This document shows, in pieces, positions 5,531 through 20,643 of a stretch of 21,618 bases of DNA; positions within the stretch are counted from its first letter, which is position 1; each line of letters starts with the position of its first letter. The DNA comes from a virus: positions 1 to 21,618 of the IMG/VR virus record IMGVR_UViG_3300025425_001035; one strand, given 5' to 3'. Made by a program: the position numbers and the translations under genes. The notes under the pieces are model-generated. The model worked only from the letters and a program-made list of their open reading frames with translations, searched no databases and had not been told where the DNA came from.

Positions 5531-6368
5531 ATCTTCTCCAAACTAAATCAAAGTCTTTACTTATAGCGTGTACAATCTTTGTTTCTTCAGGTATAAATTT
5601 TTGAGTATCTAAAAAGTAATGCCATTGATTATCTAACCATTGTATGTTCACCTGATTTACTTTTGTTTTAAAAGAAAAGATTGTTTCATTATCATATCTA
5701 AACATATCAACAATATTATCAGGATATAAACCACCTCTGTCATTTCTTAGTCTAGTCATCATATCAATTACATCTCTAAATTTGCCAAAGTAATTTAGTT
5801 TTTGTATATCTTCTTTTCTGGCGCCTATGATACCTGTATTGATAACATCATTACTAGGATTTAAACCATAGTTTAAAAGCATGGCATGACAATTAAAGTA
5901 TTTTGCAGTAGGACTTCTTATACCTTGTACTGTATTGTAATCTTTTCTTACATGGTCATTGTTATTATAAACACATATACCTTTAGATAAGTCCCATGTG
6001 TCAAAAAAAGACTCGTTTGTTAATGGCACAGCGTCAAAGTCTAAGTATAATATCTCATCATATTTTTTAGATAACTCATATAGTAAATGTATCTTATAAA
6101 AATTGATTATTTCATAGCCTGTTAACTCAGGAAAATCAGATTTAAAATTCTTTTCAAATGATTGATAGTCTTCTTGTTCAAACATAATAAAATCAGCATC
6201 TATCTTATTGGCATAATGTCTCTTACAATCAATTAATTTCTTATAATGTTTTTTAAATGCATTAACAGTAATACTAGCTTTGTCTACCGTATCGTGTTGA
6301 TTTTTAGATTTGCCATAGTGCTCATCTGCTGGCACATCTACATATAAACTATAGATAACTCTATTCAT
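5523..6368 (-). CDS. GT-A-type glycosyltransferase
   Basis: This 281-residue protein contains YDEILYLDFDAVPLTNESFF, with D110-F-D112 as the DxD motif after a hydrophobic strand. Before it, KKLIDCKRHYANKIDADFIMFE forms an early helix and strand typical of GT-A enzymes. After it come VINTGIIGARKEDIQKLNYF (residues about 176-195), which resembles the acceptor-side N-x-G segment, and a late VHAIS. No membrane segment is present, so it should be cytosolic. It is longer than the other two DxD enzymes and its flanks differ, suggesting another sugar or acceptor. It overlaps its neighbours by 8 bases each. Confidence 0.75.
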   Translation of the reverse strand: MNRVIYSLYVDVPADEHYGKSKNQHDTVDKASITVNAFKKHYKKLIDCKRHYANKIDADFIMFEQEDYQSFEKNFKSDFPELTGYEIINFYKIHLLYELSKKYDEILYLDFDAVPLTNESFFDTWDLSKGICVYNNNDHVRKDYNTVQGIRSPTAKYFNCHAMLLNYGLNPSNDVINTGIIGARKEDIQKLNYFGKFRDVIDMMTRLRNDRGGLYPDNIVDMFRYDNETIFSFKTKVNQVNIQWLDNQWHYFLDTQKFIPEETKIVHAISKDFDLVWRRYD

Positions 6369-6948
6369 ATTTACCTACTAATAAAAACCTAGTGCCTCTA
6401 TCATCTTTTATTTCATCTTCAATTAAAACCTTTGCGTTGTCTGGTAATTGATTTTTAAATTCTTCAATATTATTAACACAATTAATGTGACCTTCAATGT
6501 TAGTCATATTATTAGATTGATAAGCAAAATAAGATTTAGTATCTAATTTTAATTCTTTCATAGGTCGCATATGTTCACACGAGGTATTAATTATTAAATT
6601 AGCGTTTTGTATTCTACCATTTCTATCTTTATGAAATACATCACTTGTTATAAAGTCAACATTTTTATAATGTTTGAATAATCTATTTTTAGCAATACTA
6701 ATTACTTTTTCATCTATATCTATTAAAGAAATTCTTTTTACTTCTTTAAATGCAGGTATTAATATACTACCATACCAACCACCTAATATAGTGATTTCAG
6801 ATTTTTTATTTACAATATTCAAATCTCTAATATAATTAATTAATATTTCTTTAGATTTAAACTGATTAGGACTAAAAGAATCTAATAAGTTTGAATTGTG
6901 TCTGGCTTCTGCCATTATATTTTTAAATAATTGTAGGTCTATATCCAT
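6361..6948 (-). CDS. SAM-dependent methyltransferase-like protein
   Basis: The 195-residue protein fits a class I methyltransferase. ITILGGWYGSILIPAF at about 52-67 stands at the SAM-binding motif I position, with GGWYG in place of GxGxG. SLIDIDEKVISIAKNRL at 74-90 has the acidic residue after the second strand that binds the ribose, VDFITSDVF at 97-105 is the adenine-side segment, and NLIINTSCEHM at 117-127 is motif IV. The NTSCEHM form with Cys, Glu and His together is unusual and may mark the substrate or metal site. It sits between a glycosyltransferase and a nitroreductase-like gene with overlaps of 8 and 10 bases. Methyl acceptor unknown: a sugar hydroxyl or carboxylate is a guess from context. 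Confidence 0.65.
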   Translation of the reverse strand: MDIDLQLFKNIMAEARHNSNLLDSFSPNQFKSKEILINYIRDLNIVNKKSEITILGGWYGSILIPAFKEVKRISLIDIDEKVISIAKNRLFKHYKNVDFITSDVFHKDRNGRIQNANLIINTSCEHMRPMKELKLDTKSYFAYQSNNMTNIEGHINCVNNIEEFKNQLPDNAKVLIEDEIKDDRGTRFLLVGKYE

Positions 6949-7622
6949 TTTATCACTTCATCAATAGGAGGTTTAATATCATCTTGTAATTCTCCTCTTT
7001 CTTCAAGGTCTTCATATCTATATCTATCTGAATAACCTAATGACATTAATAGTAAAGGTCTATATTTTACATAAGGTACATCTTTCCATTTATCTACACC
7101 TCTAGGAAAACAAGATGTATAAGAAACATCAATGCCTTTTTCCATTGCATACATTGTCATATTACTAATAAACATTCCTACTTCAATACATGCTGTATCG
7201 GCAATTCTTTCAACCCATTCAGGAAATAATTGTTCAGCAAAGTGACCTGTTTTAATTTGTCTTTCATAATATGGATTTGGTTTCTCACACACTCTACTAC
7301 TAAAAACTAATAGATATGAATTAAACTTTACATGTTCATAATAAGGATTTGCAAAACCTTGAACCTGTGAATTGTAACCATTTTTAACGGCGTCTTTTTC
7401 CATATTAGTATGATTCATAACAGATTTATTCCACACTTTTACTTTTTCCTCATGTTTGTCAGGTCCTAAAACATGACAATTGTAAGGCATAAAATTGTTT
7501 TTTGATGGTGTTGTTTTCCATGTTTTCCATAAAAGATTTTCAATTACTTCATATGGTGGATGTTTGTCAGTTTTATATTTTCTGACATGTTTTCTTTTTT
7601 CTAATAAATCAAATGTAGTCAT
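6939..7622 (-). CDS. Nitroreductase-family protein
   Basis: With the ATG at 7622 the protein has 227 residues; a longer form from an in-frame TTG at 7637 is possible. The ATG is preferred because it overlaps the carbamoyltransferase stop as ATGA, the usual arrangement here. LLEKRKHVRKYKTD matches the N-terminal RRSVRxF flavin-binding motif. TTPSKNNFMPYNCHVLGP matches the phosphate-side segment, and ACIEVGMFISNMTMYAMEKGI matches the core helix. VSYTSCFPRGVDKW and LLLMSLGYSDRY supply the late strands. Such enzymes bind FMN as dimers and reduce or oxidise small molecules with NAD(P)H. It is clearly the sister of the protein at 12846-13421 (shared PYN..VLGP, GMF and VSY..CF segments). Its redox substrate is unknown. 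Confidence 0.75.
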   Translation of the reverse strand: MTTFDLLEKRKHVRKYKTDKHPPYEVIENLLWKTWKTTPSKNNFMPYNCHVLGPDKHEEKVKVWNKSVMNHTNMEKDAVKNGYNSQVQGFANPYYEHVKFNSYLLVFSSRVCEKPNPYYERQIKTGHFAEQLFPEWVERIADTACIEVGMFISNMTMYAMEKGIDVSYTSCFPRGVDKWKDVPYVKYRPLLLMSLGYSDRYRYEDLEERGELQDDIKPPIDEVIKWI

Positions 7623-9100
7623 TTTCTTACTATCCAATCGTTAATTATTAATAGGTCTAATGATGTTCTTTTAAATGTTCTCATAGCCTGTTGAGGTGTT
7701 TCTACAATAGGTTCTTGACAATTGAAACTTGTATTAAGTAACATAGGTATGCCTGTGATTTTGTAAAACTCATTTATGATATTATAAAACTTCTCATTAA
7801 ACTCTTTATTGACAGTTTGTATTCTAGCAGTACCATCAACATGAGTAATACCAGGCACCTTATCTGTTTTTACTTTACATATTCTTGACATATAAGGACT
7901 AGGACTATTTGTATCAAAGTATTCTTTGTAATGTTCTTCTAATACAGCAGGTGCGAATGGTCTAAAATCTTCTCTCTTTTTAATCGTACTATTGATTATG
8001 TCTTTGATATTAGGATTGCGAGGGTCAGCTAATATACTTCTATTACCTAATGCTCGATTACCACTTTCTGATTTGCCTTGATACCAACCAACTATCTTGC
8101 CATCAGCAATAGATTGTGCTATTACTTTATAGTTAACTCTTTCATCACCTTCAAAATTATATTCATTACCAGCAAATGTTTCTGTTTTGTGAATATTATT
8201 ATTAATAGTATAATCGGCATGTTGATATGTACCTAATGCTTGGCCTTCATCACCAACAGCAGGTGGTATATAAACATTGTCATAATGTTTTGTAAACTCT
8301 TCATTAACATAACCGTTATATGCAACACCACCAGCAATACATAAGTTATCACAAGTCTTTAACGGATATACATGTTCTTTTATTTTATCAATAGTAAACT
8401 TTTGTAGTGTACAAGCTAAATCATTTATGTTGTCTAGTCTAATATGTTTGAAATGTTTTTGTTTCTTTTCTGTAATAGGTCCATCTAGTATTGTTTCAAA
8501 CACATCATAATAATATTGACTAAAATTACCATAACCTACTTTACCCATAAGTTTACTTGCACCTAATGTTCCAAAACCTGTTAGATTAGACATATGATTC
8601 CATAACCATCCGATTGGTAGTTTATCAGATAAGTCAATTAGATTTTGGTCTTTATCAAAGAATACACATCTGTACTTTGCACCTATACCGTCTATGGCCA
8701 GAATATCCGACTTATCAAAACCTGAATTTAAAAAGGCATATGTAGCATGTGATTGATGATGGTCTATGTAATAGATATTATCTTCAAAATAAAAATCCCA
8801 TAGTGTTTTAGGTTCAAAATCAAACACACCTTTTGGTAATAAGTCTTTACACATTCTTATACCACCAAGTGTATAAGTAAATGCCAGTACATCATCTGTC
8901 TTTTTAAAATACTCTTTTACAAACTCATTATTTAAACGATAATCAGCTGAGTTTAATATGTCTGATTGATGAGCATACGCTTCAGCGTGATAAGGTAGAT
9001 TGTGTTTAAATCTAGTTTCCCTCTCTCGTTGGTTGTGCCATACACCATCATATGTATTATGGTCGTGTAGATTTACGGCGACAGCGAATATCTTTCTCAT
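7619..9100 (-). CDS. NodU/CmcH-type O-carbamoyltransferase
   Basis: The 493-residue protein matches the carbamoyltransferase family, which moves a carbamoyl group from carbamoyl phosphate through an adenylate to a hydroxyl, as in NodU, CmcH and TobZ. The N-terminal Kae1-like domain has metal-binding H114, H115 and H118 (IDHHQSHAT), then AIDGIGAKYRC, GKLMGKVGYG-like ASKLMGKVGYG, and CIAGGVAYNGYVN with PPAVGDEGQALG. The C-terminal domain has SGNRALGNRSILADPR, REDFRPFAPAV, DGTARIQTV, LLNTSFN and EPIVETPQQAM, all hallmark segments. It is shorter than the usual 550-600 residues but keeps every block. It overlaps both neighbours by four bases. The likely acceptor is a sugar or other hydroxyl on the product built by this gene run; that is inference. 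Confidence 0.92.
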   Translation of the reverse strand: MRKIFAVAVNLHDHNTYDGVWHNQRERETRFKHNLPYHAEAYAHQSDILNSADYRLNNEFVKEYFKKTDDVLAFTYTLGGIRMCKDLLPKGVFDFEPKTLWDFYFEDNIYYIDHHQSHATYAFLNSGFDKSDILAIDGIGAKYRCVFFDKDQNLIDLSDKLPIGWLWNHMSNLTGFGTLGASKLMGKVGYGNFSQYYYDVFETILDGPITEKKQKHFKHIRLDNINDLACTLQKFTIDKIKEHVYPLKTCDNLCIAGGVAYNGYVNEEFTKHYDNVYIPPAVGDEGQALGTYQHADYTINNNIHKTETFAGNEYNFEGDERVNYKVIAQSIADGKIVGWYQGKSESGNRALGNRSILADPRNPNIKDIINSTIKKREDFRPFAPAVLEEHYKEYFDTNSPSPYMSRICKVKTDKVPGITHVDGTARIQTVNKEFNEKFYNIINEFYKITGIPMLLNTSFNCQEPIVETPQQAMRTFKRTSLDLLIINDWIVRK

Positions 9101-9918
9101 TTTAGTAACTTCCCATACTTGCTCATTGGAAAATGACCCTTAGGTTGCACCCATTCAGTACAGGTTTTGCAATAGTTCTCATACTTGAACAATCTAAAGT
9201 TCATCATCTTGTCTATGTTCTCCTGCGTTAGGTCAAAGGTTTTCGATAGTTCTTTATTATTAGCAAACTTCTTACTACAATGTACAATATGCCTTTTTTC
9301 AAAGTCGATAACTGGCACCATAGGAAAAGACGCACACATTTTACGGTCAATCTCAGCTGCCTGTATAACATCTGTAAACTCTGGTGACCTGCCATTAAAA
9401 GCCTTCCACATTGTATTCTTATGGTCTAATTTTTTGATAATCTCTGGATATTTGTCTTTGTATTTAAAATAGTTAGGTGTTCTAAGTACCACATTATAGT
9501 TGTTAAAGTCATTCTCTGGCACATAGTCAAAGTTACCTAATTTCTTAACTTCATCCTCATACCAATCTAGTATATTGTGTTCAACATATAATACATCTTT
9601 ATCTTCTAATATGTGAGGATATCTTTTACGAATAAATGAGTTAGATAATACTGAACAAACATGATTCGGATTCTTTTTAATTTCTGATATTACTTCGTCT
9701 AAATTTTTAATAAGACCTGGTTCGCCACCTAAAAGATTAACTCTAATTTTATATTCTTTTAAATATCCTAGAGTCTGTCTTAAAAAGTCCATATCTACAG
9801 TCAAGTTACGCATTTCTAAAGTGTAACTGGTACAATAGTGACAATCTTTATTACATGACATTGACATAAAGAAGTCTATTGCTAAATAATTTTCTTGTAT
9901 TTCTTTTAGTGTTTTCAT
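9097..9918 (-). CDS. Radical SAM enzyme with possible auxiliary cluster
   Basis: The 273-residue protein has the radical SAM CxxxCxxC motif at C22, C26 and C29 (CNKDCHYC), which holds the [4Fe-4S] cluster that cleaves SAM. NLLGGEPGL at 61-69 is the GGEP SAM-binding motif. Four more cysteines lie in the C-terminal third (C195, C214, C250, C253; the last two as YCKTC), resembling a SPASM- or twitch-like site for a second cluster. Such proteins modify peptides, sugars or other small molecules. The neighbours are a carbamoyltransferase and an unknown 95-residue protein, each overlapping by four bases. The 3' part is visibly richer in G+C than the 5' part, hinting at a different history. Substrate not predictable. 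Confidence 0.85.
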   Translation of the reverse strand: MKTLKEIQENYLAIDFFMSMSCNKDCHYCTSYTLEMRNLTVDMDFLRQTLGYLKEYKIRVNLLGGEPGLIKNLDEVISEIKKNPNHVCSVLSNSFIRKRYPHILEDKDVLYVEHNILDWYEDEVKKLGNFDYVPENDFNNYNVVLRTPNYFKYKDKYPEIIKKLDHKNTMWKAFNGRSPEFTDVIQAAEIDRKMCASFPMVPVIDFEKRHIVHCSKKFANNKELSKTFDLTQENIDKMMNFRLFKYENYCKTCTEWVQPKGHFPMSKYGKLLK

Positions 9919-10202
9919 TTTATAATTTTAAAAAATAATTTGTTAAAGGCTACCTTTAGTTTATTTGGTGATTTAAATGATACATCTTGAATATACTCAG
10001 GCATTTGATACACTTTCTCAACAATATAATCATAAATGTCCTCAGTTGTTTCAGTTATCAAACTCTTATCAATCATATTATCACCTAGAATCTTTGACAT
10101 GTTTTGACAAAATGTAATAGGACATTTATCAGTAATGTCAATCATGTTACCTTTTATATCTACAGTCCAGATTTTTGAGTAATTTTTATTGTGTTCAATC
10201 AT
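9915..10202 (-). CDS. Unknown 95-residue protein between radical SAM and aminotransferase genes
   Basis: I do not recognise this protein. It has a beta-like start (YSKIWTVDIKGNMIDITD), a central region with C28 and C33 (CPITFC), a helical stretch (TTEDIYDYIVEKVYQM) and a basic C-terminus rich in Lys and Phe (KLKVAFNKLFFKIIK). The DSL motif of acyl carriers is absent and it does not look like a PqqD-type peptide-binding domain. Its overlaps of four bases with both neighbours mean it is translated with them. A partner or substrate of the adjacent radical SAM enzyme is one possibility, based only on position. Confidence 0.65.
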   Translation of the reverse strand: MIEHNKNYSKIWTVDIKGNMIDITDKCPITFCQNMSKILGDNMIDKSLITETTEDIYDYIVEKVYQMPEYIQDVSFKSPNKLKVAFNKLFFKIIK

Positions 10203-11245
10203 ACAGTTATCATAATAATTTCTAACATTTTTCTAATTTCATGTTTTGTTAGATATGGATGTAAAGGTAAAGTAAGTATAGTATCACTTACAATTTGACA
10301 ATTCATACAATCATCTTTTTTGTGTGTTATGTTTTTATACATGGCGTTTTCACTTAAAGGTTTATTGTAATGTACCTTTGCGTTTAATACTCTATCTTTT
10401 ACTTTATCTCTTATGGTTTTGTTTTCAAATCTTACAACATATTTGTGGTAGTTATGATTTAAACCGTTTGTAGATTTTTGAGTTACCACAGGAAAATCTT
10501 TTAATGCATTATCATATATCTTGGCAATCTCTTGTCTTTTTGCCTGCCATTCATTCATTCGTTTTAGTCTAAAGTTTATGATTTCAGCATTAAACAATAA
10601 CATTTTAGAATTAAAACCTAAAAACTCATTATTACCATGCTTTCTAATCTTTTTAAAAAACTCCGCTCTATCTTCTTCATCTGTCAGAATTGCACCACCA
10701 CCGGATATTCCTGCCACAACTTTATTTGCATTAAAACTAAGGGTACTAATATCACCTATGGATCCAGCTACAACACCATTATAACTAGAACCTAGAGATT
10801 GGCAAGCGTCCTCTATGATAGGTATTCCTAGTTGTTTAATTTTTTCCATATCAGACATGTTACCAAAAAGATGAGGATAAACTATGGCTTTTGTTTTGTT
10901 ACTTATCATTCTTTTGACACTATTATAAGATAGATGATAACTGTTTAAATCAATGTCACAAAATACAGGTGTTGCCCCGACCATAGAGATACATGAGGCT
11001 GTAGATATCCAAGAAAAGTTTGATGTAATAACTTCATCACCTGGTTTGATACCCATTGACATTAATGAATACGCCAATGCGTCTGTACCACTATTACATG
11101 TTACAGCATATTTTCTATTTGTGATTTCTGCTAGATTTTTTTCAAGAAACTCAACATTTGTTTCTTGTTCTTTTTGCATTACTCTATCAAAGAGTTCTAG
11201 GTATTCACTTTTGTTTGATAAGTATTCTCTATCCCAACCTGTCAT
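10199..11245 (-). CDS. DegT/DnrJ/EryC1/StrS-type sugar aminotransferase
   Basis: The 348-residue protein is a PLP-dependent fold-type I aminotransferase of the nucleotide-sugar family. NSGTDALAYSLMSMGIKPGDEVI at 51-73 binds the cofactor phosphate. ATPVFCDID at 91-99 is a family signature, EDACQSLG at 145-152 holds D146 and Q149 at the pyridine ring, and SFNANK at 170-175 gives the Schiff-base lysine K175. These enzymes convert keto-sugar nucleotides to amino sugars, and some act as dehydratases; the lysine argues for amination here. Length is slightly under the usual 370-390. It overlaps the SGNH gene by 17 bases. With the epimerase at 2142 it suggests that an amino sugar is made. Confidence 0.9.
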   Translation of the reverse strand: MTGWDREYLSNKSEYLELFDRVMQKEQETNVEFLEKNLAEITNRKYAVTCNSGTDALAYSLMSMGIKPGDEVITSNFSWISTASCISMVGATPVFCDIDLNSYHLSYNSVKRMISNKTKAIVYPHLFGNMSDMEKIKQLGIPIIEDACQSLGSSYNGVVAGSIGDISTLSFNANKVVAGISGGGAILTDEEDRAEFFKKIRKHGNNEFLGFNSKMLLFNAEIINFRLKRMNEWQAKRQEIAKIYDNALKDFPVVTQKSTNGLNHNYHKYVVRFENKTIRDKVKDRVLNAKVHYNKPLSENAMYKNITHKKDDCMNCQIVSDTILTLPLHPYLTKHEIRKMLEIIMITV

Positions 11246-11987
11246 GTATATACTCCGCTATTTTTAATTGTCCTTTTGCATTTGGATGGTCATCTAAATC
11301 AGATACTTTTACCGACTTATCACCTCTCTCAAAGATAGGTGTTGCTTGTGAACAAAGTGTAAACCCACCTAGTTCTTTTGCTATTGGCCAACCCATAAAT
11401 TTATTTGTGTTTAGTTTTTTATCGTAACTTAAAATACATTTCAATACTCTTTTTTTATCTTTTTCTTTATCATATTGGTATTTCATTTTTTTATTATTCA
11501 AAGAAGGATTATCATAAATTATTCCATGACCATATCTTAAACCACCTAATAAATCTGAATGAAAATTTATCATCTGTACTTGACAATAATTTAAGTTAAA
11601 TCTTTCACACAGGTATTGAAAACTTAAATAAAATTTTAAACTTTTGTTAGCTAAACTAAAGGCATCGCCGTGTGGGTCGTTTCTTAAATTTGTCCATCTG
11701 CCGGCGTGGCCTTGTTGATAGTCTTTTCTCTGTATTTGAGACCAACCAGCAATGACCAAACCTATACTATCTTTTGATATTGAAGGATTAGAAATGTAAT
11801 CTAATAAAGATGAGTAAATATATTCATTGCCAGCTCCTGCCTTGCCAAGATTTACGCAATTCATATCTAATTTTTTTGCTAAAATTTCTGGCCATTTAGG
11901 CCAACTTGTGTCTATTTCTGGATGAAATTCTGATAACCAATTTGGGTCGGTATAACTATCACCACTAACTAATAATGTCTTTTTCAT
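11229..11987 (-). CDS. SGNH/GDSL-type hydrolase
   Basis: The 252-residue protein has the SGNH blocks: VSGDSYTD with nucleophile S11, LGKAGAGNEY with Gly and N54, IAGWSQIQR at the third block, and DLDDHPNAKG near the C-terminus with H234. These enzymes cleave or transfer acyl esters, often acetyl groups, on carbohydrates or lipids. The catalytic Asp usually stands three residues before the His; here that position is Leu, with Asp at minus 4, minus 2 and minus 1, so the triad may be shifted. No signal peptide is present, so it should act in the cytosol. It overlaps neighbours by 23 and 17 bases. Adding or removing an O-acyl group on the glycan is the natural guess. Confidence 0.78.
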   Translation of the reverse strand: MKKTLLVSGDSYTDPNWLSEFHPEIDTSWPKWPEILAKKLDMNCVNLGKAGAGNEYIYSSLLDYISNPSISKDSIGLVIAGWSQIQRKDYQQGHAGRWTNLRNDPHGDAFSLANKSLKFYLSFQYLCERFNLNYCQVQMINFHSDLLGGLRYGHGIIYDNPSLNNKKMKYQYDKEKDKKRVLKCILSYDKKLNTNKFMGWPIAKELGGFTLCSQATPIFERGDKSVKVSDLDDHPNAKGQLKIAEYIHDRLG

Positions 11988-12849
11988 TTATCACCTTAAT
12001 CATATTAACAAGTATATTTAGGTTGCCGGAATACATCTGTTTTGTAGGTACAGGTCTATTGTAGTATATCGGTCCGCCGTCTTTGATGTTTTTATCTCTT
12101 AAATATATCACTTCTTTTCCTAACCATTTACACTCTTGCATTAATCTAGGTGCTGGGTCAAAGTATGTTTTTGTGTAAACATATGTTTTAAATAGCCCTA
12201 ATAGATTTTTTACAGGTGCAAATATATTATTGTAGTCCATTATAATGTATTTCTCATTATATGTCAATACTCCGTGTGACTTATATTTGTCAATATGTTT
12301 TGAAATTTCGTTGTAATATACATTATTTGTACCTAAAAAGAGATAATCAAATTGTATATTATCTACAATTGGTTTATAGACTTCAAAATTAATCATTTTT
12401 TCATATTGTTCTCCTTCACCATTAGGGTAAACATCATAATCACATAAGTTGTACACTCTTTTGTTTTTAAAATATTTCAATGCAGGTTGCCAAAGGTCGT
12501 GTTGATTTTCAGAATACATTGATATCAGATTACCACCAAATAATAAATGCATTGTTAATAACTGGTCGTAAGTATAATCCTTTTTATCTTTGTAGGATAA
12601 AGTCATCATACTTCTACCCAATATAAAAGATATATCATTAGACGCAGGTGTATATTCATCAAAGATTATGTTTTCACAACGGACATATTTTTCTCTGATA
12701 GAGTTTAGATAATCTTCTTTTGTAAATTTATGATGTGTGATAATTACAACTTGACTTGTGATACCTATAGAGTTTAGGTAACAACAATGTTCATAACTAT
12801 AACACAAGAGACCATCGCCTGGTTTACTTGTACATACTATATTAATCAT
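11965..12849 (-). CDS. GT-B-like glycosyltransferase, tentative
   Basis: This 294-residue protein begins INIVCTSKPGDGLLCYSYEHCCYLNSIGI, a strand, glycine loop and helix like the first unit of GT-B transferases, followed by VVIITHH. The second half has YLFLGTNNVYYNEISKHI and VLTYNEKYIIMDYNNIFAP. The late segment TYFDPAPRLMQECKWLGKEVIYLRD is where GT-B enzymes bind the donor nucleotide, with a Glu in the helix and a following strand. No DxD is seen, as expected for GT-B. It is shorter than typical GT-B proteins (350 or more). It overlaps the next gene by 23 bases and the previous by four. An alternative is a non-catalytic sugar-binding relative. Confidence 0.5.
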   Translation of the reverse strand: MINIVCTSKPGDGLLCYSYEHCCYLNSIGITSQVVIITHHKFTKEDYLNSIREKYVRCENIIFDEYTPASNDISFILGRSMMTLSYKDKKDYTYDQLLTMHLLFGGNLISMYSENQHDLWQPALKYFKNKRVYNLCDYDVYPNGEGEQYEKMINFEVYKPIVDNIQFDYLFLGTNNVYYNEISKHIDKYKSHGVLTYNEKYIIMDYNNIFAPVKNLLGLFKTYVYTKTYFDPAPRLMQECKWLGKEVIYLRDKNIKDGGPIYYNRPVPTKQMYSGNLNILVNMIKVINEKDIIS

Positions 12850-13421
12850 TTAAATTTTATAACATCATCTATATGAGGTTTATAATCTCCTTTTTCTACT
12901 CTCGGTGTGAGAGGATAACCAAATTGCATACTGAACAAAACTTCTTCATTTTCATATTTCCAATCTCTAAAACATAACTGATATGAAACGCCTAGATTAT
13001 TTTCTAAACATAAACCAATTAATACTTTTGCAAACATACCTATTTCTAAAGATATGTTGTGTTTATCTTTTTTATATTTTTGAGGGTCAGTACAAGGCTG
13101 GTCATGTCCTTCATCAATTAATTGTTGAACATGTTGGTTTGGCTTTGTAACTAATCTAGGTGTAAAGATTAAATTATATGGCGCCTTTATATTGTGATTG
13201 TGGCCACCACCTGTTACTTTTTGTACATGTGAATATATCTTTTGTTTTTCATCACTACAATTTGGACCTAAAACATATATATTATATGGTATGATATTCT
13301 GTTTTGAGGCGACAAGATTATATGTTTTTGATAATAAATCTTTCGCTAATGTATCATTCGGTATTTTATCGCTATATCTATATACCTGATACCGTGTTTC
13401 AAATAGTTTTTCCATAATCAT
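12846..13421 (-). CDS. Nitroreductase-family protein (first gene of leftward run)
   Basis: The 191-residue protein is the smaller sister of that at 6939-7622. Shared segments are ETRYQVYRYSD (for RRSVRxF), VASKQNIIPYNIYVLGP, SLEIGMFAKVLIGLCLENNLGVSYQLCF and a final IDDVIKF. In length and motifs it is close to a minimal nitroreductase, so it could bind FMN as a dimer. Two start codons are in frame, at 13421 and 13415. AGGA stands four bases before the first. If the overlapping late box is used, the predicted transcript start falls on the first ATG, which would make the message leaderless or favour the second. It opens a run of thirteen overlapping genes. Confidence 0.72.
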   Translation of the reverse strand: MIMEKLFETRYQVYRYSDKIPNDTLAKDLLSKTYNLVASKQNIIPYNIYVLGPNCSDEKQKIYSHVQKVTGGGHNHNIKAPYNLIFTPRLVTKPNQHVQQLIDEGHDQPCTDPQKYKKDKHNISLEIGMFAKVLIGLCLENNLGVSYQLCFRDWKYENEEVLFSMQFGYPLTPRVEKGDYKPHIDDVIKFK

Positions 13422-13426
13422 GTTCC

Positions 13427-13434
13427 TATTTATA
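13427..13434 (-). promoter_or_regulatory. Late-type promoter box for the leftward run
   Basis: Read leftward this is an exact TATAAATA, the T4-like late promoter core. If spaced as in T4, transcription would begin near 13421, on the first ATG of the leftward run. It is the only good promoter candidate for about 10 kb of leftward genes. Confidence 0.6.
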
Positions 13435-13440
13435 TAAATA
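13433..13440 (+). promoter_or_regulatory. Late-type promoter box for the rightward run
   Basis: An exact TATAAATA shares two bases with the leftward box. Transcription would start near 13446, leaving a short leader with GAGGA at 13450-13454 and the ATG at 13461. It is the likely promoter for the eleven rightward enzyme genes. Confidence 0.65.
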
Positions 13441-13460
13441 GGAGGACATGAGGATTTGAT

Positions 13461-14078
13461 ATGAGTTATAATAGTTTATTATCTTTTGGTGACTTGATAC
13501 CTTTAAAATTAAAGTGTGATGTCAAGAAGTTATTTGACGAAACGGAAAAGTTCGTTTATCTAAAATACAATCCAAGAAAAGATATAGAAAGATATGGTCT
13601 AAGTATTACTAGTTTAGATGGCTCTCTAAACGGTGTAGATTTAGATTCAATAAAAGAATATAATAAAGAAAACAATACAGAGTATGATGAGTTATCCTTT
13701 AACAAGTTCACAGAGGTTTACCATACTAGTTCAGAAATACAAAAAATAGTAGAACCATTTAAAGACCATATTGGCAGGTCACATATACTAAGTTTACAAG
13801 AAGGTGGTTATTTTCCACCACACAGAGATTTGCCTGTTTATGTTGAACAACAAAATAGTTTGAGAATACTGGTACCTTTAAAAGGTTGTAATCCACCAGA
13901 TATGTATTTTATGTATGAAGATAAACCTTTACATTTCGAACATGGTAGAGCGTACTTTTTGAACACAAATAAGTCACACAATTTATTTTCTTTTAAAGGT
14001 AGTGAGATGATAGTATTAAATATTAAAACAAATGAAGAGGTCTATAAGATTATAGGTGACCTTTTCCAGGCTAGATAA
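13461..14078 (+). CDS. Fe(II)/2-oxoglutarate oxygenase-like protein (aspartyl/asparaginyl hydroxylase type)
   Basis: The 205-residue protein has a double-stranded beta-helix core in its second half. FPPHRD places H121 and D123 as the HxD half of the metal site; RILVPLKG at 135-142 is a core strand; HGRAYFLNTNKSHNLFSF supplies the distal H173. This resembles the small Asp/Asn beta-hydroxylase-like oxygenases common in marine phages. The Arg that usually binds 2-oxoglutarate a few residues after the distal His is not in its usual place (FKGSEMIVLNI), so co-substrate binding may differ. The ATG follows GAGGA by six bases. It is the first gene after the palindromic promoter and is related in type to the protein at 20017-20643. 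Target unknown. Confidence 0.7.
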   Translation: MSYNSLLSFGDLIPLKLKCDVKKLFDETEKFVYLKYNPRKDIERYGLSITSLDGSLNGVDLDSIKEYNKENNTEYDELSFNKFTEVYHTSSEIQKIVEPFKDHIGRSHILSLQEGGYFPPHRDLPVYVEQQNSLRILVPLKGCNPPDMYFMYEDKPLHFEHGRAYFLNTNKSHNLFSFKGSEMIVLNIKTNEEVYKIIGDLFQAR

Positions 14079-14081
14079 ATA
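14074..14081 (+). promoter_or_regulatory. Weak late-promoter-like box before the desaturase gene
   Basis: GATAAATA matches the NATAAATA form and overlaps the stop of the preceding gene. If active, transcription would begin about at the desaturase ATG (14087), with no leader. No ribosome site is obvious between these genes. Low confidence. Confidence 0.25.
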
Positions 14082-14086
14082 GTAAT

Positions 14087-14743
14087 ATGTGGTTAACAAT
14101 TTCAATATTAATAGGCATAGTGTGGTCTCAAATTATTTCACACTTTGGCGCTAGCATACTATTACATAGACATTATTGTCATAATCAATTCAAAGTACCT
14201 GTATGGTTTGAAAGAATTGGTTTAGCAATGTTAATGATAGCATGTATTAGAACACCAATAGGGTGGATTGCGAGTCACCGTATGCACCATACACACTCAG
14301 ACGGACCAAAAGACCCACACGCAGCTAAACATATAGGTTTCTGGAAAGTCTTATTGACTACATGGAATATTGAAAAAATACCTATGAAATATGCAAGAGA
14401 TTTATATAAAAATCCTAATTTAGTATTTTGTCATAAGCATTGGTTGAAAATACTAATAGGTGTAAATGTTGTTAGTTACATTATTTGTCCATATCTTTGG
14501 GTGGCCTTTTGTGCCGTACCATTTGTTTTTGCAAAAATAGGATTTGGACTATTGAACACAGTCGGACATAAAACACCAGGTGGCGCTAATGTACCTTGGT
14601 TAAATATGTTTATTGCAGGTGAAGGCTATCATAAAAATCATCACGAAAACTTTAAGAGAATTAGATTACATAAGTTTGATACTGGTGGTTGGTTAGCGGA
14701 GAGATTATTTAAAGATTATGAACCAAACAAAAGAAATACTTAA
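14087..14743 (+). CDS. Membrane fatty-acid desaturase (acyl-CoA/acyl-lipid type)
   Basis: The 218-residue protein has all three histidine boxes of di-iron membrane desaturases: HRHYCH at 27-32, HRMHH at 64-68 and HKNHH at 182-186. N157 with GH at 160-161 in NTVGHKTPGG is also typical. Hydrophobic stretches at about 1-20, 43-58 and 119-155 should span the membrane. The spacing fits the delta-9 type (SCD/DesC-like). These enzymes use O2 and an electron donor to put a double bond in an acyl chain. It is compact beside the usual 270-320 residues and has no fused cytochrome b5, so electrons must come from elsewhere. The gene lies eight bases after the oxygenase gene and overlaps the next by 26. 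Confidence 0.92.
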   Translation: MWLTISILIGIVWSQIISHFGASILLHRHYCHNQFKVPVWFERIGLAMLMIACIRTPIGWIASHRMHHTHSDGPKDPHAAKHIGFWKVLLTTWNIEKIPMKYARDLYKNPNLVFCHKHWLKILIGVNVVSYIICPYLWVAFCAVPFVFAKIGFGLLNTVGHKTPGGANVPWLNMFIAGEGYHKNHHENFKRIRLHKFDTGGWLAERLFKDYEPNKRNT

Positions 14744-15617
14744 AAACAATAAATTCGTAGATGTACCATTAATAAAAGATGTAAGATACCTTTTGTTAAA
14801 TCAAATAACGGCCTATGGTTATATTGCCAGAGGTACTGGTCAAGCTACCAATGAGTTAGATAAACTTGAATATGACCATAGAGAATGGGTCAAAGAGATT
14901 ATAGACCTATCAGATTTTCCTCATTTCTACTTCACTAACGGTACTACAGACGCAATACATCATTGGCGAATCACAGAAACTAGACCATGGCAAAAATTAT
15001 GTTATGGTGAATATCAATATATGGATATGATAGGACCGGAAGGAACAGTTTGTTGTGATGTACCAGGTCAATATATGAAAGATGGTCGTTCAGCATTGCC
15101 ATCTATCATAGACAAAGATAAACCTTTATACATTTCCATACCGTCAGCCGCTGATGGTAATTTTTTTAATCCACAAGAAAGAGGACCTATTGAGGCACCT
15201 GTAATATTAGATTGCACATATATTGGTGCAACAGATAAACAAAAAATAGATGTTCCTAAAAATACTGAACAAGTCTTTTTTAGTTTCTCAAAAGGATTTG
15301 GTGCAGTAGGTCAAAGACTAGGTTTAGTATATACAAAAGAACCACATCCAACTTTAGAAAGATTAAAAAGTGTAGAGTGTTGGAATTATAATGGTGTACA
15401 AACAATAGACTTATTAATAAAGAATTTTGCAGTAGATGATATGTGGAAAAAATATAGAGAAAAACAATTAGAGGTTTGTGAAAAATATAATTTTGAACCA
15501 TCTGACTGTTATTTTTTAGCAACAACAAAAGACCAATATTATAAGGAGAGAAGACGAATGAGATGGAATGATAATGCTAGAATTTGTATCACTCCACTAT
15601 TAGGAGATATTGAATGA
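14718..15617 (+). CDS. Fold-type I PLP-dependent enzyme (aminotransferase-like)
   Basis: The 299-residue protein shows a compact aminotransferase pattern. TNGTTDAIHHW at 73-83 is the phosphate-side helix start. VILDCTYIGA at 162-171 carries D165 at the ring nitrogen. FFSFSKGFGAVGQRLG at 187-202 has the Schiff-base lysine K192 and the R200 seen in class I/II aminotransferases. It is not of the DegT type found at 10199. Usual class I proteins have about 380-420 residues, so the small domain is reduced. An aminotransferase, decarboxylase or lyase role is possible. The start at 14718 overlaps the desaturase gene by 26 bases; the stop overlaps the next ATG (ATGA), which has a good AGGAGA at 15602-15607. 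Confidence 0.72.
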   Translation: MNQTKEILKNNKFVDVPLIKDVRYLLLNQITAYGYIARGTGQATNELDKLEYDHREWVKEIIDLSDFPHFYFTNGTTDAIHHWRITETRPWQKLCYGEYQYMDMIGPEGTVCCDVPGQYMKDGRSALPSIIDKDKPLYISIPSAADGNFFNPQERGPIEAPVILDCTYIGATDKQKIDVPKNTEQVFFSFSKGFGAVGQRLGLVYTKEPHPTLERLKSVECWNYNGVQTIDLLIKNFAVDDMWKKYREKQLEVCEKYNFEPSDCYFLATTKDQYYKERRRMRWNDNARICITPLLGDIE

Positions 15618-16438
15618 AACAAATATTAGACTATACGAAAAACGACTTTAAAGATTTAGTTACAAAGATTGTAAAAGATGGACAAGTTGTATTGCATGAA
15701 CAAAACCTAACACAACAAGAGTTGACCAAAGTTTGTGAGAGAATGGGTAATGTAGAAACAAATGACTACTTTATGAATCCTAAAGGCGCACCAGCAATTA
15801 GTATTGTGTCAGGTCAATTAGATAAAGATAAAAAACCAATAGGAATGTTCAGAGACCAAGAGTTACAATGGCATGCCAACGGAACAGGCAGACATGAATT
15901 CAAAGAAATATGTGTAGGTCTTTATTGTGTGTATGAATGTGTTGATACAGTTCTTTCCATAAACAATAATTGTGAAGCATTTGCAGGTCTATCAAATGAA
16001 AAGAAAGAGTTTTATAGAAACATAGATGTAAAACTTGACAATTCAGGACCTAGAGCTAGACTATGGCCAAAAGATAGTGACTATGAAGGAGTTGGTGAAG
16101 ATACTTTTAGGGTGGGTCAAGAACATTATCAAGAAACTGTTGATAGAAGACCTTTAGTAGAAAAACATCCTTTTGATGGTCGAGAGTATCTATACTTTAT
16201 GGTGCCTTACATAGTAAAAGCATTTACAAAAGATGGTACTGAAATAGAAGACTTTGAAGATTTTTATAATACATTATGGAACGATATGATTAAATCCAAG
16301 TATCAATATCATCATGTATTTAAAGTAGGTGATTTGTTGTTTATGGACCAACTAAATACAATTCATAGACGGTCACCTATTAAAGATAAAGACAGACAAT
16401 TATGGAGAACGGCATTTGATTACAGCAATTTCATTTAG
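15614..16438 (+). CDS. TauD/TfdA-type oxygenase-like protein with Asn in the metal motif
   Basis: The 274-residue protein follows the TauD layout. GMFRDQELQWHANGTGRHE at 77-95 is the first metal segment, and FMDQLNTIHRRSP at 243-255 holds the distal H251. RQLWRTAFDY at 261-270 holds the Arg that binds 2-oxoglutarate (R261 or R265). The first motif reads H87-A-N89, with AAC at 15878-15880, where TauD-type hydroxylases have HxD. Loss of that carboxylate occurs in Fe halogenases, where Ala or Gly leaves room for halide. Here Asn could mean altered chemistry or lost activity. The protein at 18054-18863 has the same change and about the same length, so the two are paralogues. Its ATG overlaps the previous stop. 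Confidence 0.8.
   Translation: MKQILDYTKNDFKDLVTKIVKDGQVVLHEQNLTQQELTKVCERMGNVETNDYFMNPKGAPAISIVSGQLDKDKKPIGMFRDQELQWHANGTGRHEFKEICVGLYCVYECVDTVLSINNNCEAFAGLSNEKKEFYRNIDVKLDNSGPRARLWPKDSDYEGVGEDTFRVGQEHYQETVDRRPLVEKHPFDGREYLYFMVPYIVKAFTKDGTEIEDFEDFYNTLWNDMIKSKYQYHHVFKVGDLLFMDQLNTIHRRSPIKDKDRQLWRTAFDYSNFI
16404..16407 (+). promoter_or_regulatory. Ribosome binding site supporting a TTG start
   Basis: GGAG lies eight bases before the TTG at 16416, inside the end of the preceding gene. It supports the TTG as the start of the FMN reductase-like gene over the later ATG at 16455. Confidence 0.5.
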
Positions 16439-16991
16439 TTATAGTGACGACTCTATGAATTATAGAGGTTTAAAATTAATGAATCATTTTTTAAACTTTG
16501 ATAATTTAGTAAAGATTAATTTACCTATTTGTAATGTCAATGGACCTGAAGGACAAACACCGGAAGAGTTAGATGATTTACATGTGAAGATTAAAGGTAG
16601 TGATAAACTAGTTTTTGCTATACCAGAATACTCTGGTCATTATAGTGTAGGATTTAAAAACTTTATGGATTGGTTAGTTGTAAAATCAAATTATAATGCA
16701 GACTTAGGTCAAGATTATTGCATTACAGATAAACCAATATATGTAATTACATTTACACCATCTAAAGAGGGTGCTGGTGACAGACACTTTGATATGACAA
16801 AAGAGTTAATAGAAAAGTTAGGTGGTAAGGTAAAGAAAATGTATGTAAAAAATGATTGTTGGGATAACTTAAAACCTGATAACTTAAATTTTGTTGAAAA
16901 AGAAAGTAAAGAAATATTAAGAAGTTCAATGAAAAATGAAGTCAACGGTTGGATTAAAAAATATAATGAATGGAATGATAAATGGAAATAA
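16416..16991 (+). CDS. NADPH-dependent FMN reductase-like flavoprotein
   Basis: The 191-residue protein has the flavodoxin-like fold of FMN reductases. The first strand and phosphate loop are ITAISFSYSDDSMNYRG at 2-18. LVFAIPEYSGHYSVGFKNFMDW at 65-86 matches the flavin-side P-x-Y-x-x-x-x-x-G-x-K-N-x-x-D-W segment. The start appears to be TTG at 16416: the first strand would be lost from the next ATG (16455), and GGAG lies eight bases upstream. Such enzymes pass electrons from NAD(P)H to FMN or to partner proteins. Neighbours include oxygenases, a desaturase and a peroxiredoxin, so it could serve as an electron supply. It overlaps its neighbours by 23 and 10 bases. Confidence 0.75.
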   Translation: MITAISFSYSDDSMNYRGLKLMNHFLNFDNLVKINLPICNVNGPEGQTPEELDDLHVKIKGSDKLVFAIPEYSGHYSVGFKNFMDWLVVKSNYNADLGQDYCITDKPIYVITFTPSKEGAGDRHFDMTKELIEKLGGKVKKMYVKNDCWDNLKPDNLNFVEKESKEILRSSMKNEVNGWIKKYNEWNDKWK

Positions 16992-17404
16992 AAGCTTTAT
17001 ACTACTTAAAAGATGGTCATATTAAATCATATGAATTAGATACTAATAAAACAATTATTATGTGTGGTATTCCTGGCGCATTTACTAGTGATTGCACATA
17101 TAAACATTTACCAGGTTTTGTAAACAACTTGCAATATTTAAAAGATAAAGGTATTGATAAGGTTGTATTTGTAGGTGTGAATGACGCTTATGTTATGCAT
17201 GAATGGAATAAATTACATGGCCATGAAGACATTGATAGTGTATCAGACCCATTGGCTAAGTTCGCCAAGTCTATAAAAAAAGATGTAGATTGGGGAGAAA
17301 GTTTTGGTGTAAGAAGTCACAGATATGCCTATCTTATTGAGAATGGAAAAATAACAAAAGAATTTAAAGACGCATTGATTGAAGGTATTAAAAAAGAATT
17401 ATGA
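16982..17404 (+). CDS. Peroxiredoxin (Prx5-type)
   Basis: The 140-residue protein carries PGAFTSDCTYKHLPGF at 31-46, the Prx5/AhpC-TSA active site with T35 and peroxidatic C38. VVFVGVNDAYVMHEW at 61-75 is a Prx5 hallmark, and R111/R114 in GVRSHRYAYLIENG fit the catalytic Arg. No second Cys suits a resolving role, so it should be of the 1-Cys type and need an outside thiol. It is a little short (about 160 is usual). It would reduce H2O2 or organic peroxides in the cytosol, which makes sense next to several O2-using enzymes and a flavin reductase. It overlaps its neighbours by 10 and 4 bases. Confidence 0.88.
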   Translation: MEIKALYYLKDGHIKSYELDTNKTIIMCGIPGAFTSDCTYKHLPGFVNNLQYLKDKGIDKVVFVGVNDAYVMHEWNKLHGHEDIDSVSDPLAKFAKSIKKDVDWGESFGVRSHRYAYLIENGKITKEFKDALIEGIKKEL

Positions 17405-18057
17405 TAAAAGGTATTGCTGAGTATCTTGACATTGACATTGATAAAGATTTATTTCTTTCAATGTATAATAAAGTTAAGATAGAAAACAATAATACATTTG
17501 GTAAAACTCCATTTGTTAGTTATTCTTTAGAAGAGAATAGAACAGGTAAACCTACAGGTTATGAAAAAGTATTTGACCCTATATTATCTCAACATAGAAA
17601 AGTACATACTAACTATCAATTCAGGTCGACAGGTTTTAATACAGCAGATAGTACAGAGAAAGATGTCTTTGCTCACACAGATATAGATTTAGATACTGAA
17701 CATCCAAATGGTTACAATATTGTTGTTCCTGTATTAGGCAATTCTCGTATAGATTATTTTGAAACTATAGATGAAGAAGTTTACTTACCAGAAAAAAATG
17801 CTCATGGTCATGCTTACTACCATGAATTTTATGCTCAGAAAGAATTGGGTCAAGGCACACCTGAATTTGAAAAGTTTTTGAGTAATAGAAAGATAGGTCA
17901 TATTATTGTTGATAAACCTTTATTAATACAAACCACCATTATGCATAGAGTGGTAGTTACAGAGGCGCCTAGATGTGCTTGGGTAACAAGATGGAATAAT
18001 ATACCTAAAGATGTAAGCTTTCAAGAATTTAAACAGAGGGTAGAAAATATATTATGA
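17401..18057 (+). CDS. Fe(II)-dependent oxygenase-like protein with complete HxD...H
   Basis: The 218-residue protein looks like a cupin-fold Fe(II) oxygenase. FAHTD at 90-94 gives H92 and D94; YNIVVPVLGNSRIDYFE at 105-121 forms core strands; IIVDKPLLIQTTIMHRVVVTEAPRCAWVTRW at 168-198 includes the distal H182 and R191, the probable 2-oxoglutarate contact. Unlike the two TauD-type neighbours, its carboxylate is intact. A His-rich insert lies at about 135-142 (HGHAYYH). It overlaps both flanking genes by four bases, and sits between the peroxiredoxin and the second TauD-type gene. The substrate is unknown; it does not group clearly with the other oxygenases here. Confidence 0.65.
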   Translation: MIKGIAEYLDIDIDKDLFLSMYNKVKIENNNTFGKTPFVSYSLEENRTGKPTGYEKVFDPILSQHRKVHTNYQFRSTGFNTADSTEKDVFAHTDIDLDTEHPNGYNIVVPVLGNSRIDYFETIDEEVYLPEKNAHGHAYYHEFYAQKELGQGTPEFEKFLSNRKIGHIIVDKPLLIQTTIMHRVVVTEAPRCAWVTRWNNIPKDVSFQEFKQRVENIL

Positions 18058-18863
18058 TTAATCCAGAAAAAATTGATGTACAAATTAAAGAGTTCTCAAA
18101 AGAACAATTGATTGATATATCTAAAGGTATACACAAACAAGGTGTAACAGTATTCTATAATCAAAAATTAAATGAAACAGAATATACAAATGTAATGAAG
18201 AAGTTTGGTGAGTGTGAAACACCTAATTTGTTTATGAATCCTAAAGAGTATCCAGAAATCTTTTTAGTTACAGGTAAAAAAGTAGATGGTAAAAAATTAG
18301 GCATGTTTGGTGATACAGAATTAGGTTGGCATTCTAACGGTAATTCAAGACATCTTATAGATAAAATATTGATTGCTTTGTATTGTGTAAAAGAAGATAT
18401 TAATACAACTTTAAGTGTTTGTAATACTCAACAACCTTTTTATGATATGTCTAAAGATGAACAAGAATATTATCGTTCAATTACAATTAGACTTAAATTT
18501 AAAAACAATACAATATACGATTTAGAAGAAGGCGACCCCGAGTTAGAGTTTATGAGTAAAAACAAAGGTAGTATTCGTAAGTTAGTTGGTCAACATCCAC
18601 ATACTGGTTTAGAATACTTTTATTTTCCTTATCATTTTATAACTAAAGCATGGCAAGGTAAAAAACAAATTGACGCTGAAGAGATGATTAATAAGTTAAT
18701 GCCTAAAATATTTAAATCACAATATCAATATCATCATATATTTAAAGAAGGAGATTTGTTATTAATGGACCAATTTACAAGTTTACACCGTAGAACACCA
18801 GTTATGGATAACAATCGTTTATTATGGCGAATAGCATCGGATTTTAAAAATGTCTATAAGTAA
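18054..18863 (+). CDS. Second TauD/TfdA-type oxygenase-like protein with Asn in the metal motif
   Basis: This 269-residue protein parallels that at 15614-16438 throughout. Shared segments include MNPKxxPxI near residue 61, GMFxDxEL then WHxNGxxRH at 92-100, LYCVxE, QYQYHHxFKxGDLLxMDQ and xHRRxPxxDxxRxLWRxAxDxxN. The metal motif is H93-S-N95, with AAC at 18336-18338, again Asn in place of Asp. H245 and R255/R259 complete the expected site. Keeping the Asn in both copies while other residues have drifted suggests that it is selected, not decay. The gene overlaps its neighbours by 4 and 14 bases. The two could act in turn on one substrate, or as a heterodimer. Confidence 0.8.
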   Translation: MINPEKIDVQIKEFSKEQLIDISKGIHKQGVTVFYNQKLNETEYTNVMKKFGECETPNLFMNPKEYPEIFLVTGKKVDGKKLGMFGDTELGWHSNGNSRHLIDKILIALYCVKEDINTTLSVCNTQQPFYDMSKDEQEYYRSITIRLKFKNNTIYDLEEGDPELEFMSKNKGSIRKLVGQHPHTGLEYFYFPYHFITKAWQGKKQIDAEEMINKLMPKIFKSQYQYHHIFKEGDLLLMDQFTSLHRRTPVMDNNRLLWRIASDFKNVYK

Positions 18864-19458
18864 AGAAGTGCCTTGGCCAAAAATCGTAACTGACTCTGGT
18901 GAAATACCCATGAAAAGAAGATATGCATTTAGAGATATGTCATATCTCGACACAATAGAAGCAAGACCTATTTTTGAAACACAATCAGATATAATAATTA
19001 AAAATAATTTCAAAGGTATTGTAGATATAGGTTGTAGGCATGGACCTATTAACGACTTTCTACATGAAAAGAATTACAAAGACTATGAGTATTATGGTTT
19101 TGATACATCACCTGAACCTATAGAGTTAGCACAAAAAAGATGGCCAAACTATCAATATGAAGTTAGAGATTGGGCAACATTAAAAAAGGTTAATTTTAAT
19201 GTCGATTGTATAATTTTTAGTGGTGTATTGTTATATGAAAAAGACCATTATAAAATGTTTACTAATATTATGAAATATTATAATTGTAATAATGCAGTAA
19301 TTCAAGAGCCTTATCACAATCAAAAGTATTACGAAGAAAGATTAAAATTAAAATCAATTACAAATGATATGCAACAATATAGTTTTTGGGAAGAACACAT
19401 TGTAGAGGCAGAAATTTTTTGTGGTAGAAGATTAGTCGCCCACGCTAAATTACTATGA
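18850..19458 (+). CDS. Class I SAM-dependent methyltransferase
   Basis: The 202-residue protein has a clear SAM-binding core: IVDIGCRHGPINDFL at 57-71 (motif I, DxGCxxG), YYGFDTSPEPIELAQKRW at 81-98 with D85 for the ribose, YEVRDWATL at 103-111, and IIFSGVLLYEKDHY at about 116-129 as motif IV and post-motif helix. The first 45 residues form a cap that would contact the substrate (MKRRYAFRDMSYLDT). It differs from the methyltransferase at 6361. It overlaps the TauD-type gene by 14 bases and the next gene by four. O- or N-methylation of the pathway product is the likely job; substrate unknown. Confidence 0.82.
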   Translation: MSISKEVPWPKIVTDSGEIPMKRRYAFRDMSYLDTIEARPIFETQSDIIIKNNFKGIVDIGCRHGPINDFLHEKNYKDYEYYGFDTSPEPIELAQKRWPNYQYEVRDWATLKKVNFNVDCIIFSGVLLYEKDHYKMFTNIMKYYNCNNAVIQEPYHNQKYYEERLKLKSITNDMQQYSFWEEHIVEAEIFCGRRLVAHAKLL

Positions 19459-20036
19459 TTGTAAAAAGATATTCAGAGGACCCCAATAAGTATTGGCCAA
19501 TGATTGAAAGGTTTAGACTACAGACCTTTGAAGAAGGTAATGATAGTTTAACACATAAGAAGTACAATCCAGATAATCCTGAAATAGAAACATGGTTAAC
19601 TTTTAAAGATGATAAACTAATATCTATATCAGCCGCCGAAAGTTCACACTATACAAATGACTCTGATATTGCAGTTAGAGTTTGTCGTTATCATATACTA
19701 AAAGAGTTTAGACATACTCATTGTGGTTTAATTATGGCTGAACACCAAATAAAGTGGGCAAGAGAAAGAGGATTTAAAATATTATATATCACACATGACA
19801 TAAGAAATAAAGCCATAAATAACCTATATCAAAGAAAAAAGATGATGACTGATAAAGAGTTTAAAAAGTTTATAACAGGAGAATGGTGGACAAAACTACA
19901 ATTAGAGAAAGGTTTTTTATTCACTACAGGAAAGATGTTACAATATGTGTATAGCATTAGACTACAAGGTGATTTTGATTGGCAACCTGAATCAGATTTT
20001 ATAATTAAAAGGAAACATGATGGACAAATTATCTAA
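19455..20036 (+). CDS. GNAT-like acyltransferase
   Basis: The 193-residue protein matches the GNAT layout. WLTFKDDKLISISAAESS at about 47-64 gives beta-4-like strands, and RVCRYHILKEFRHTHCGLIMAEHQIKWARERGFK at 75-108 fits the strand, acetyl-CoA pyrophosphate loop and helix (motif A). ILYITHD with NKAINNLYQRKK at 109-129 fits motif B. The loop lacks the ideal Q/R-x-x-G-x-G/A, so the assignment is moderate. Family members transfer an acyl group, usually acetyl, to an amine; an amino sugar from the DegT enzyme is an attractive but unproved acceptor. The ATG overlaps the methyltransferase stop as ATGA; the 3' end overlaps the next gene by 20 bases. Confidence 0.6.
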   Translation: MIVKRYSEDPNKYWPMIERFRLQTFEEGNDSLTHKKYNPDNPEIETWLTFKDDKLISISAAESSHYTNDSDIAVRVCRYHILKEFRHTHCGLIMAEHQIKWARERGFKILYITHDIRNKAINNLYQRKKMMTDKEFKKFITGEWWTKLQLEKGFLFTTGKMLQYVYSIRLQGDFDWQPESDFIIKRKHDGQII

Positions 20037-20643
20037 ACACAGTTTACCAACAGTAAAAGAATTAAATCTTAATATAGATTTGGATAAGTTAAGAAAGGCT
20101 ACAGACGAGTTGGCTGAAAAGTTTACAGATGTGAGGTCTGCTAATCCTATGTTATGTATGAACCATGAGGAGTTGGTCAAAAGTGTATATGATAATTTTG
20201 AACAAATCAATTTGACTACACCAAGTGAGATATTGCCACATACTACAAGTATAAAAGAAAGATTGAGAAGAAAAGAAGAACACCTATATAATATACCTAC
20301 ACCAGAATATACAGGTAGTTATTTTGAGGAGATAGTTACTCAATGTAAATCTCCAGCTAGTAGAATTAGAATTACAAAATTGGCACCAGGCAAAATGATA
20401 CCATGGCATGTTGATTATGATGTATCGTATGGGGTACGAGTTATTGTTCCTATCTATGGAGATACAAATGTTATTAATCTATTTAAAAGAGATAATAAAA
20501 TAGAAGCATATAATCTTAAAAATGGAGTTGCCAATTTCTTAAATATAGGTTATACTCACGGTGTCGTGTCTATGAGTAAAAAGGCTAGGTTAGCTTTGAT
20601 GTTTACATTAAATGGCACAAAAGACATAGAAAAACTATTATAA
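20017..20643 (+). CDS. Fe(II)/2-oxoglutarate oxygenase-like protein (aspartyl/asparaginyl hydroxylase type)
   Basis: The 208-residue protein has the full small-oxygenase site: MIPWHVDYD with H131 and D133, RVIVPIYGD at 141-149 as core strand, and NFLNIGYTHGVVSMSKKARLALMF with distal H181 and the 2-oxoglutarate Arg R191. It resembles the protein at 13461-14078 in domain layout but keeps the Arg that one lacks. Residues 1-95 are a helical N-terminal part with no clear relative. Two adjacent ATGs (20017 and 20020) can start it; AAGGA just upstream fits the second slightly better. It is the last gene of the rightward enzyme run, after which a late promoter and virion genes follow. Confidence 0.75.
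   Translation: MMDKLSKHSLPTVKELNLNIDLDKLRKATDELAEKFTDVRSANPMLCMNHEELVKSVYDNFEQINLTTPSEILPHTTSIKERLRRKEEHLYNIPTPEYTGSYFEEIVTQCKSPASRIRITKLAPGKMIPWHVDYDVSYGVRVIVPIYGDTNVINLFKRDNKIEAYNLKNGVANFLNIGYTHGVVSMSKKARLALMFTLNGTKDIEKLL

Follow-up and report, generated by a model that had tools for sequence, protein, structure and literature searches.

Late promoters of T4-type phages are read by host RNA polymerase carrying the late sigma factor gp55, assisted by gp33 and the sliding clamp gp45, and consist of a box (TATAAATA) at -13 to -6 (PMC1524935), with no identified -35 element, located upstream of genes. In marine T4-like cyanophages, NATAAATA is the accepted late box (PMC2984593), and a CTAAATA variant is known from Aeh1 (PMC1524935). 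An earlier published effort at late-promoter prediction in pelagimyophages was unsuccessful (PMC7029224).

Late boxes on opposite strands within one short divergent gap between late genes are present in RB18, a T4 relative, in which the gp53/gp4 gap holds an inward-facing pair (TATAAATATATTATCTATTTATA) and an outward-facing pair with a 5-bp spacer, including one variant box, is located at 113070. At the gp2/gp4 junction of HTVC008M (CATGTTACTATTTATATCTAAATAAGGATATG), a gap of 26 bp contains two back-to-back late boxes, with an ATG 5 nt past each of them (CAT-GTTAC-TATTTATATCTAAATA-AGGAT-ATG). Bacterial bidirectional promoters, as described by Warman, Grainger and colleagues (PMC12825309, PMC10268837), initiate divergent transcripts at a single symmetric element, where polymerases may compete; the element is of the sigma-70 -10 type, and the two starts are separated by 18, 10 or 23 bp.

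The locus analysed here is part of a 21,618-nt stretch of viral DNA (IMG/VR record IMGVR_UViG_3300025425_001035, positions 1 to 21,618; referred to as the window). Its palindrome is very probably a T4-type late promoter that acts in both directions through overlapping boxes and is recognized by gp55-RNA polymerase. As in T4-type late promoters, the box is located upstream of genes, and late sigma genes are present in Pelagibacter phage Mosig EXVC030M, the nearest isolate. Unlike those promoters, two complete boxes form a palindrome with a 2-bp overlap, the predicted leftward start falls on the ATG, and the genes concerned are metabolic rather than structural. Neither RB18 pair is a perfect back-to-back palindrome or leaderless, and the HTVC008M junction, a near copy of the arrangement, differs in that its palindrome is imperfect, its plus-strand box is the CTAAATA variant, and its boxes abut without overlapping. 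Compared with the bacterial promoters, the present site carries a phage late sigma box with operons on both sides, and its starts are predicted by the T4 rule to be 25 bp apart, a distance outside the sigma-70 class. Among open-licence papers, no divergent overlapping T4-like late promoters were found. A preliminary description of this DNA had stated that no such case was known in this phage group; this is only partly correct, since a T4 relative possesses close divergent late boxes and bacteria are known to have bidirectional promoters.

Organization of the divergent gap

The gap between the leftward ATG (13421) and the rightward ATG (13461) is 39 bp in length. Its features and those of the flanking genes, whose functions were assigned by family match or from the Mosig annotation, are as follows:

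3353..13421, minus strand: leftward run of 13 ORFs, including a DegT-family aminotransferase, a radical SAM protein and a carbamoyltransferase
12846..13421, minus strand: first leftward gene (191 aa), predicted to be leaderless; Mosig homologue annotated as a nitroreductase-domain protein
13422..13426, minus strand: spacer from leftward box to ATG, fixed at 5 nt with variable letters; the ATG lies on the predicted +1
13424..13443, no strand: perfect 20-bp palindrome TCCTATTTATATAAATAGGA, its own reverse complement; the outermost 3 bp at either end differ among relatives
13427..13440, no strand: conserved core TATTTATATAAATA, two back-to-back late boxes with 2 bp in common, delineated from relatives and a controlled IMG/VR scan
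13427..13434, minus strand: leftward T4-type late box TATAAATA; predicted +1 at 13421 (-13 to -6 rule, PMC1524935)
13433..13440, plus strand: rightward T4-type late box TATAAATA; predicted +1 at 13446 (-13 to -6 rule, PMC1524935)
13446..13460, plus strand: 15-nt leader of the rightward message, predicted from sequence and the T4 late rule, with GAGG at 13450-13453
13461..14078, plus strand: first rightward gene (205 aa), with weak similarity to Asp/Arg beta-hydroxylases (Pfam E 0.007, which does not reach the curated cut-off), a name that its Mosig counterpart also bears
13461..20643, plus strand: rightward run of 11 ORFs, including a fatty-acid desaturase, a TauD-type dioxygenase, an FMN reductase and a redoxin
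14074..14081, plus strand: GATAAATA, located 5 nt before the ATG at 14087; also present in Mosig

The palindrome had been described as identical on both strands with one box per strand, and both statements were confirmed, the exact boxes occupying 13433-13440 (plus) and 13427-13434 (minus). The 20-bp unit proposed at that time is present as a palindrome, but only its inner 14 bp are kept in relatives. It is the longest perfect palindrome of the window (69% A+T), in which palindromes of at least 20 bp arose in 7 of 100 dinucleotide shuffles, and its length by itself is weak evidence. Its position is considered non-random because it sits in the single divergent gap, which accounts for 39 of 21618 bp. 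The window shows no enrichment of the box itself (5 occurrences versus 7 expected). The predicted starts at 13446 and 13421 are consistent with the T4 rule.

On the same rule, the AGGA arms of the palindrome would fall at about -6 to -3. As this position precedes both predicted starts, the arms were rejected as ribosome sites on the mRNAs; they are also not conserved. A hairpin or terminator was likewise rejected, as the palindrome lacks a loop and no terminator-like site was found at it, and so was a sigma-70 promoter, as no hexamer pair coincided with the boxes. A three-codon reading frame (ATG AGG ATT TGA) is located at 13448-13459, close to the 5' end of the predicted rightward leader, and is also observed at loci L123 and L124.

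The gap was previously considered the only one between the two runs; it is indeed the sole promoter-sized gap among them, although 8 bp separate the first rightward gene from the next. No Pfam match was obtained for the first leftward gene. The metabolic genes of both runs, which are not classical late genes, would be expressed late if the boxes function as predicted. At the far end of the leftward run, head-on leftward and rightward genes overlap by 14 bp of coding sequence (3353-3366), as they do in Mosig (71292-71305). Two further TATAAATA boxes (20639-20646 and 21232-21239), positioned 20 and 18 nt before the ATGs at 20667 and 21258, are likely to be ordinary leadered late promoters 3' of the rightward run.

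Conservation and recurrence of the core

A single GenBank phage record matched the window, namely that of Mosig, a T4-like phage of SAR11 (Kyanoviridae), which exhibited 80% identity across 75% of a 7-kb query and a similar gene order. The window, a virus fragment, does not contain gp55, and the annotation of Mosig includes gp55, gp33 and gp45 genes. The TATAAATA box occurs 30 times in Mosig, with 21 of these lying in sense orientation 4-60 nt 5' of an annotated start; this upstream placement was the best among 56 same-letter permutations in a genome that is ~97% coding.

Ten junctions in which the rightward gene heads a run were compared, Mosig included; as these sequences are related, the counts represent non-independent events. 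The 14-bp core was intact in nine of the ten junctions and a late box was present on each strand in all ten, while nucleotide identity of the rightward gene dropped to 66-69%. The outer arms vary, and the complete 20-bp form was observed only in the window and in L129. In the remaining junction (L130:3120-3147), the right arm is lost and the gap is represented by CATATAAATATTTATATG, which places 12 bp between the two start codons and forms an inward palindromic box pair, one box per strand, each 5 nt from its ATG; both flanking genes are accordingly predicted to be leaderless. The alignment of this gap in relatives, which had been proposed as a check on whether both arms are kept, thus revealed one box per strand throughout. 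The refuting outcome named there, relatives that keep a single arm, was not realised, as L130 possesses a plus-strand box 5 nt before the ATG despite the missing arm. Two unrelated kinds of gene occupy the leftward position, encoding either a nitroreductase-like protein of 191-204 aa or a protein of 292-300 aa starting with MINI/V-C-SKPGDG. The form of the gap sequence does not track the kind of leftward gene, indicating that genes have been exchanged beside a kept promoter. In four close relatives (L125-L128), where the same rightward gene is preceded by a gene in the same direction, a late box before it is absent.

A scan of IMG/VR for the core identified at least 120 sites, for which divergent ORFs of at least 100 aa were counted as neighbours. 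Among the 120 sites listed, 16 were located between such ORFs, three of them corresponding to the present junction, compared with 0 of 122 for a neutral palindrome of identical composition (ATTAATATATTAAT). At others of these 16 sites, the core was flanked by genes for gp4 head closure and the baseplate tail tube cap (L020 and L082), or adjoined gp4 (also L033, L035, L039 and L074), a head-tail adaptor with portal (L061), a gp5-like hub (L064), a tail-fibre-like gene (L102) or an endolysin (L056). The control palindrome used initially, ATAAATATATTTAT, was unsuitable, as it contains two inward NATAAATA boxes, and was replaced by ATTAATATATTAAT; it was itself found between divergent genes at 8 of 121 sites, some adjoining gp4, indicating that two layouts exist, the second of which is crossed. 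Across 14 reference T4-like genomes, the exact core was absent from 13 and present only in Mosig; a loose search for box pairs in these genomes returned about as many matches as a reversed control and provided no evidence.

In the gap upstream of pelagimyophage gp4 (L157-L236; Mosig 101418-101466), two late boxes face each other as crossed divergent promoters, an arrangement retained in most of the 80 loci; both messages would therefore overlap at their 5' ends.

The two-way late promoter of the preliminary description is well supported by these comparisons, i.e. by the boxes of the relatives, the occurrence of the core between other T4-like late genes, the neutral control and the gp55, gp33 and gp45 genes of Mosig.

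Box-to-start spacing and predicted unequal outputs

The distance from the leftward box to the ATG was 5 nt in all ten related junctions, with differing spacer letters. In bacteria, a -10-like box ~12 bp 5' of the start codon is an accepted sign of leaderless genes (PMC3160421). The box likewise places the predicted +1 on the start codon here and in all ten relatives, in line with a genome-wide peak at 5 nt, and the leftward message is probably leaderless, starting on the A of the ATG at 13421. The predicted rightward leader of the relatives carries a ribosome site (AAGG or GAGG), except in L130. A comparable asymmetry was observed in five of the six gp4 cases (the exception being L074), where the gp4 ATG is 5-6 nt from its box and that of the partner gene 28-38 nt from its own.

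Spacing was quantified for boxes with the ATG of a predicted gene within 45 nt; matches to a core-N4-8-ATG pattern, which are biased by design, were excluded. A distance of exactly 5 nt was found for 8 of 17 boxes in HTVC008M, 6 of 30 in Mosig and 3 of 23 in Melnitz-3, and this spacing is general in pelagimyophages and relatives. It is nearly absent from S-PM2, with 1 of 28 boxes, and from the T4-like RB18, with 0 of 29; permuted motifs gave 0.15-0.85 each. The depositors' start calls agreed in all seven HTVC008M cases checked, the eighth (142360) being left out. This class of boxes, at loci in Mosig, HTVC008M and Melnitz-3 (L154-L156 and L626-L641) and at window positions 14074-14087, corresponds to predicted leaderless late mRNAs and includes gp2, a tail tube gene, the tape measure gene and gp25. 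Within the rightward run, GATAAATA is likely to specify a second leaderless late start.

The suggestion that both runs would fire equally found no support, given that a predicted leaderless message on one side is opposed to a predicted leader with a Shine-Dalgarno sequence on the other, and that overlapping promoters should be mutually exclusive.

Alternative explanations and proposed mechanism

The palindrome could arise if one box alone works as a promoter, the other being a by-product of a near-symmetric box that is kept through the overlap. The box is AT-rich and partly symmetric, so that a common centre provides some symmetry free, and bacterial -10 elements often yield a divergent partner transcript (PMC12825309). 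However, only two of the eight bp of each box are held in common, and the second box is therefore not forced; all ten relatives possess a complete box per strand, L130 has substituted its lost right arm with another plus-strand box 5 nt from the ATG, and the leftward spacing is fixed although its letters change. We thus regard this explanation as improbable, though less so than the following two.

Perfect two-fold symmetry between two operons is also the classic pattern of an operator, here for a dimeric regulator of both runs. Against this, the conserved part corresponds exactly to two late boxes while the outer arms drift, the core recurs between unrelated T4-like late genes, and no regulator family was detected among the neighbouring proteins scanned. 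An operator is consequently very unlikely, and the earlier idea that a bound dimer could silence both runs found no support. It is just as unlikely that the palindrome is a chance product of AT-rich DNA, with transcription entering the runs from elsewhere or starting at host sigma-70 promoters: palindromes of this length do appear in shuffled windows, yet this one occupies the sole divergent gap, is kept down to 66% identity of the adjacent gene, contrasts with the neutral palindrome in the IMG/VR scan and does not coincide with any sigma-70 pair fitting the boxes.

For the overlapping two-way late promoter, the box on each strand would be read by host RNA polymerase with gp55, helped by gp33 and gp45. 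The boxes share 2 bp and the site lies inside one polymerase footprint, and it would therefore be occupied by one polymerase at a time; every initiation would thus proceed either to the left or to the right. In T4, the nicked strand sets how the gp45 clamp is oriented, and this orientation decides the activated direction (PMC2988020); a site with a promoter on both strands could accept clamps of either orientation. Initiation at 13421 would generate a leaderless message, and initiation at 13446 a message with a 15-nt leader containing GAGG. We infer that gp55-polymerase may use both boxes, with mutual exclusion, clamp-orientation choice and leaderless translation. Bacterial bidirectional promoters fire too rarely at the basal level for the two sides to compete, but one side can be repressed when the other is strongly activated (PMC12825309); clamp-activated late promoters may belong to the strong-activation regime, with one side repressing the other.

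A wider proposal, which we put forward tentatively and consider rather less likely than its opposite, is that many late messages of SAR11 and OM43 phages are leaderless (box, exactly 5 nt, ATG) and that palindromic boxes allow a single 14-bp site to serve two operons in these phages, the direction of each firing being chosen by how the replication clamp is oriented. The hosts of pelagimyophages rank among the most abundant bacteria of the ocean. The analysis provides a candidate rule for their late promoters, i.e. a box followed by an ATG at +1 or ~15-32 nt past the box, and clamp-orientation control of a divergent promoter becomes a directly testable question. If late messages are often leaderless, this would bear on how these phages use host ribosomes, and under the two-way reading of the promoter, 39 bp would be enough to switch on two long metabolic runs.
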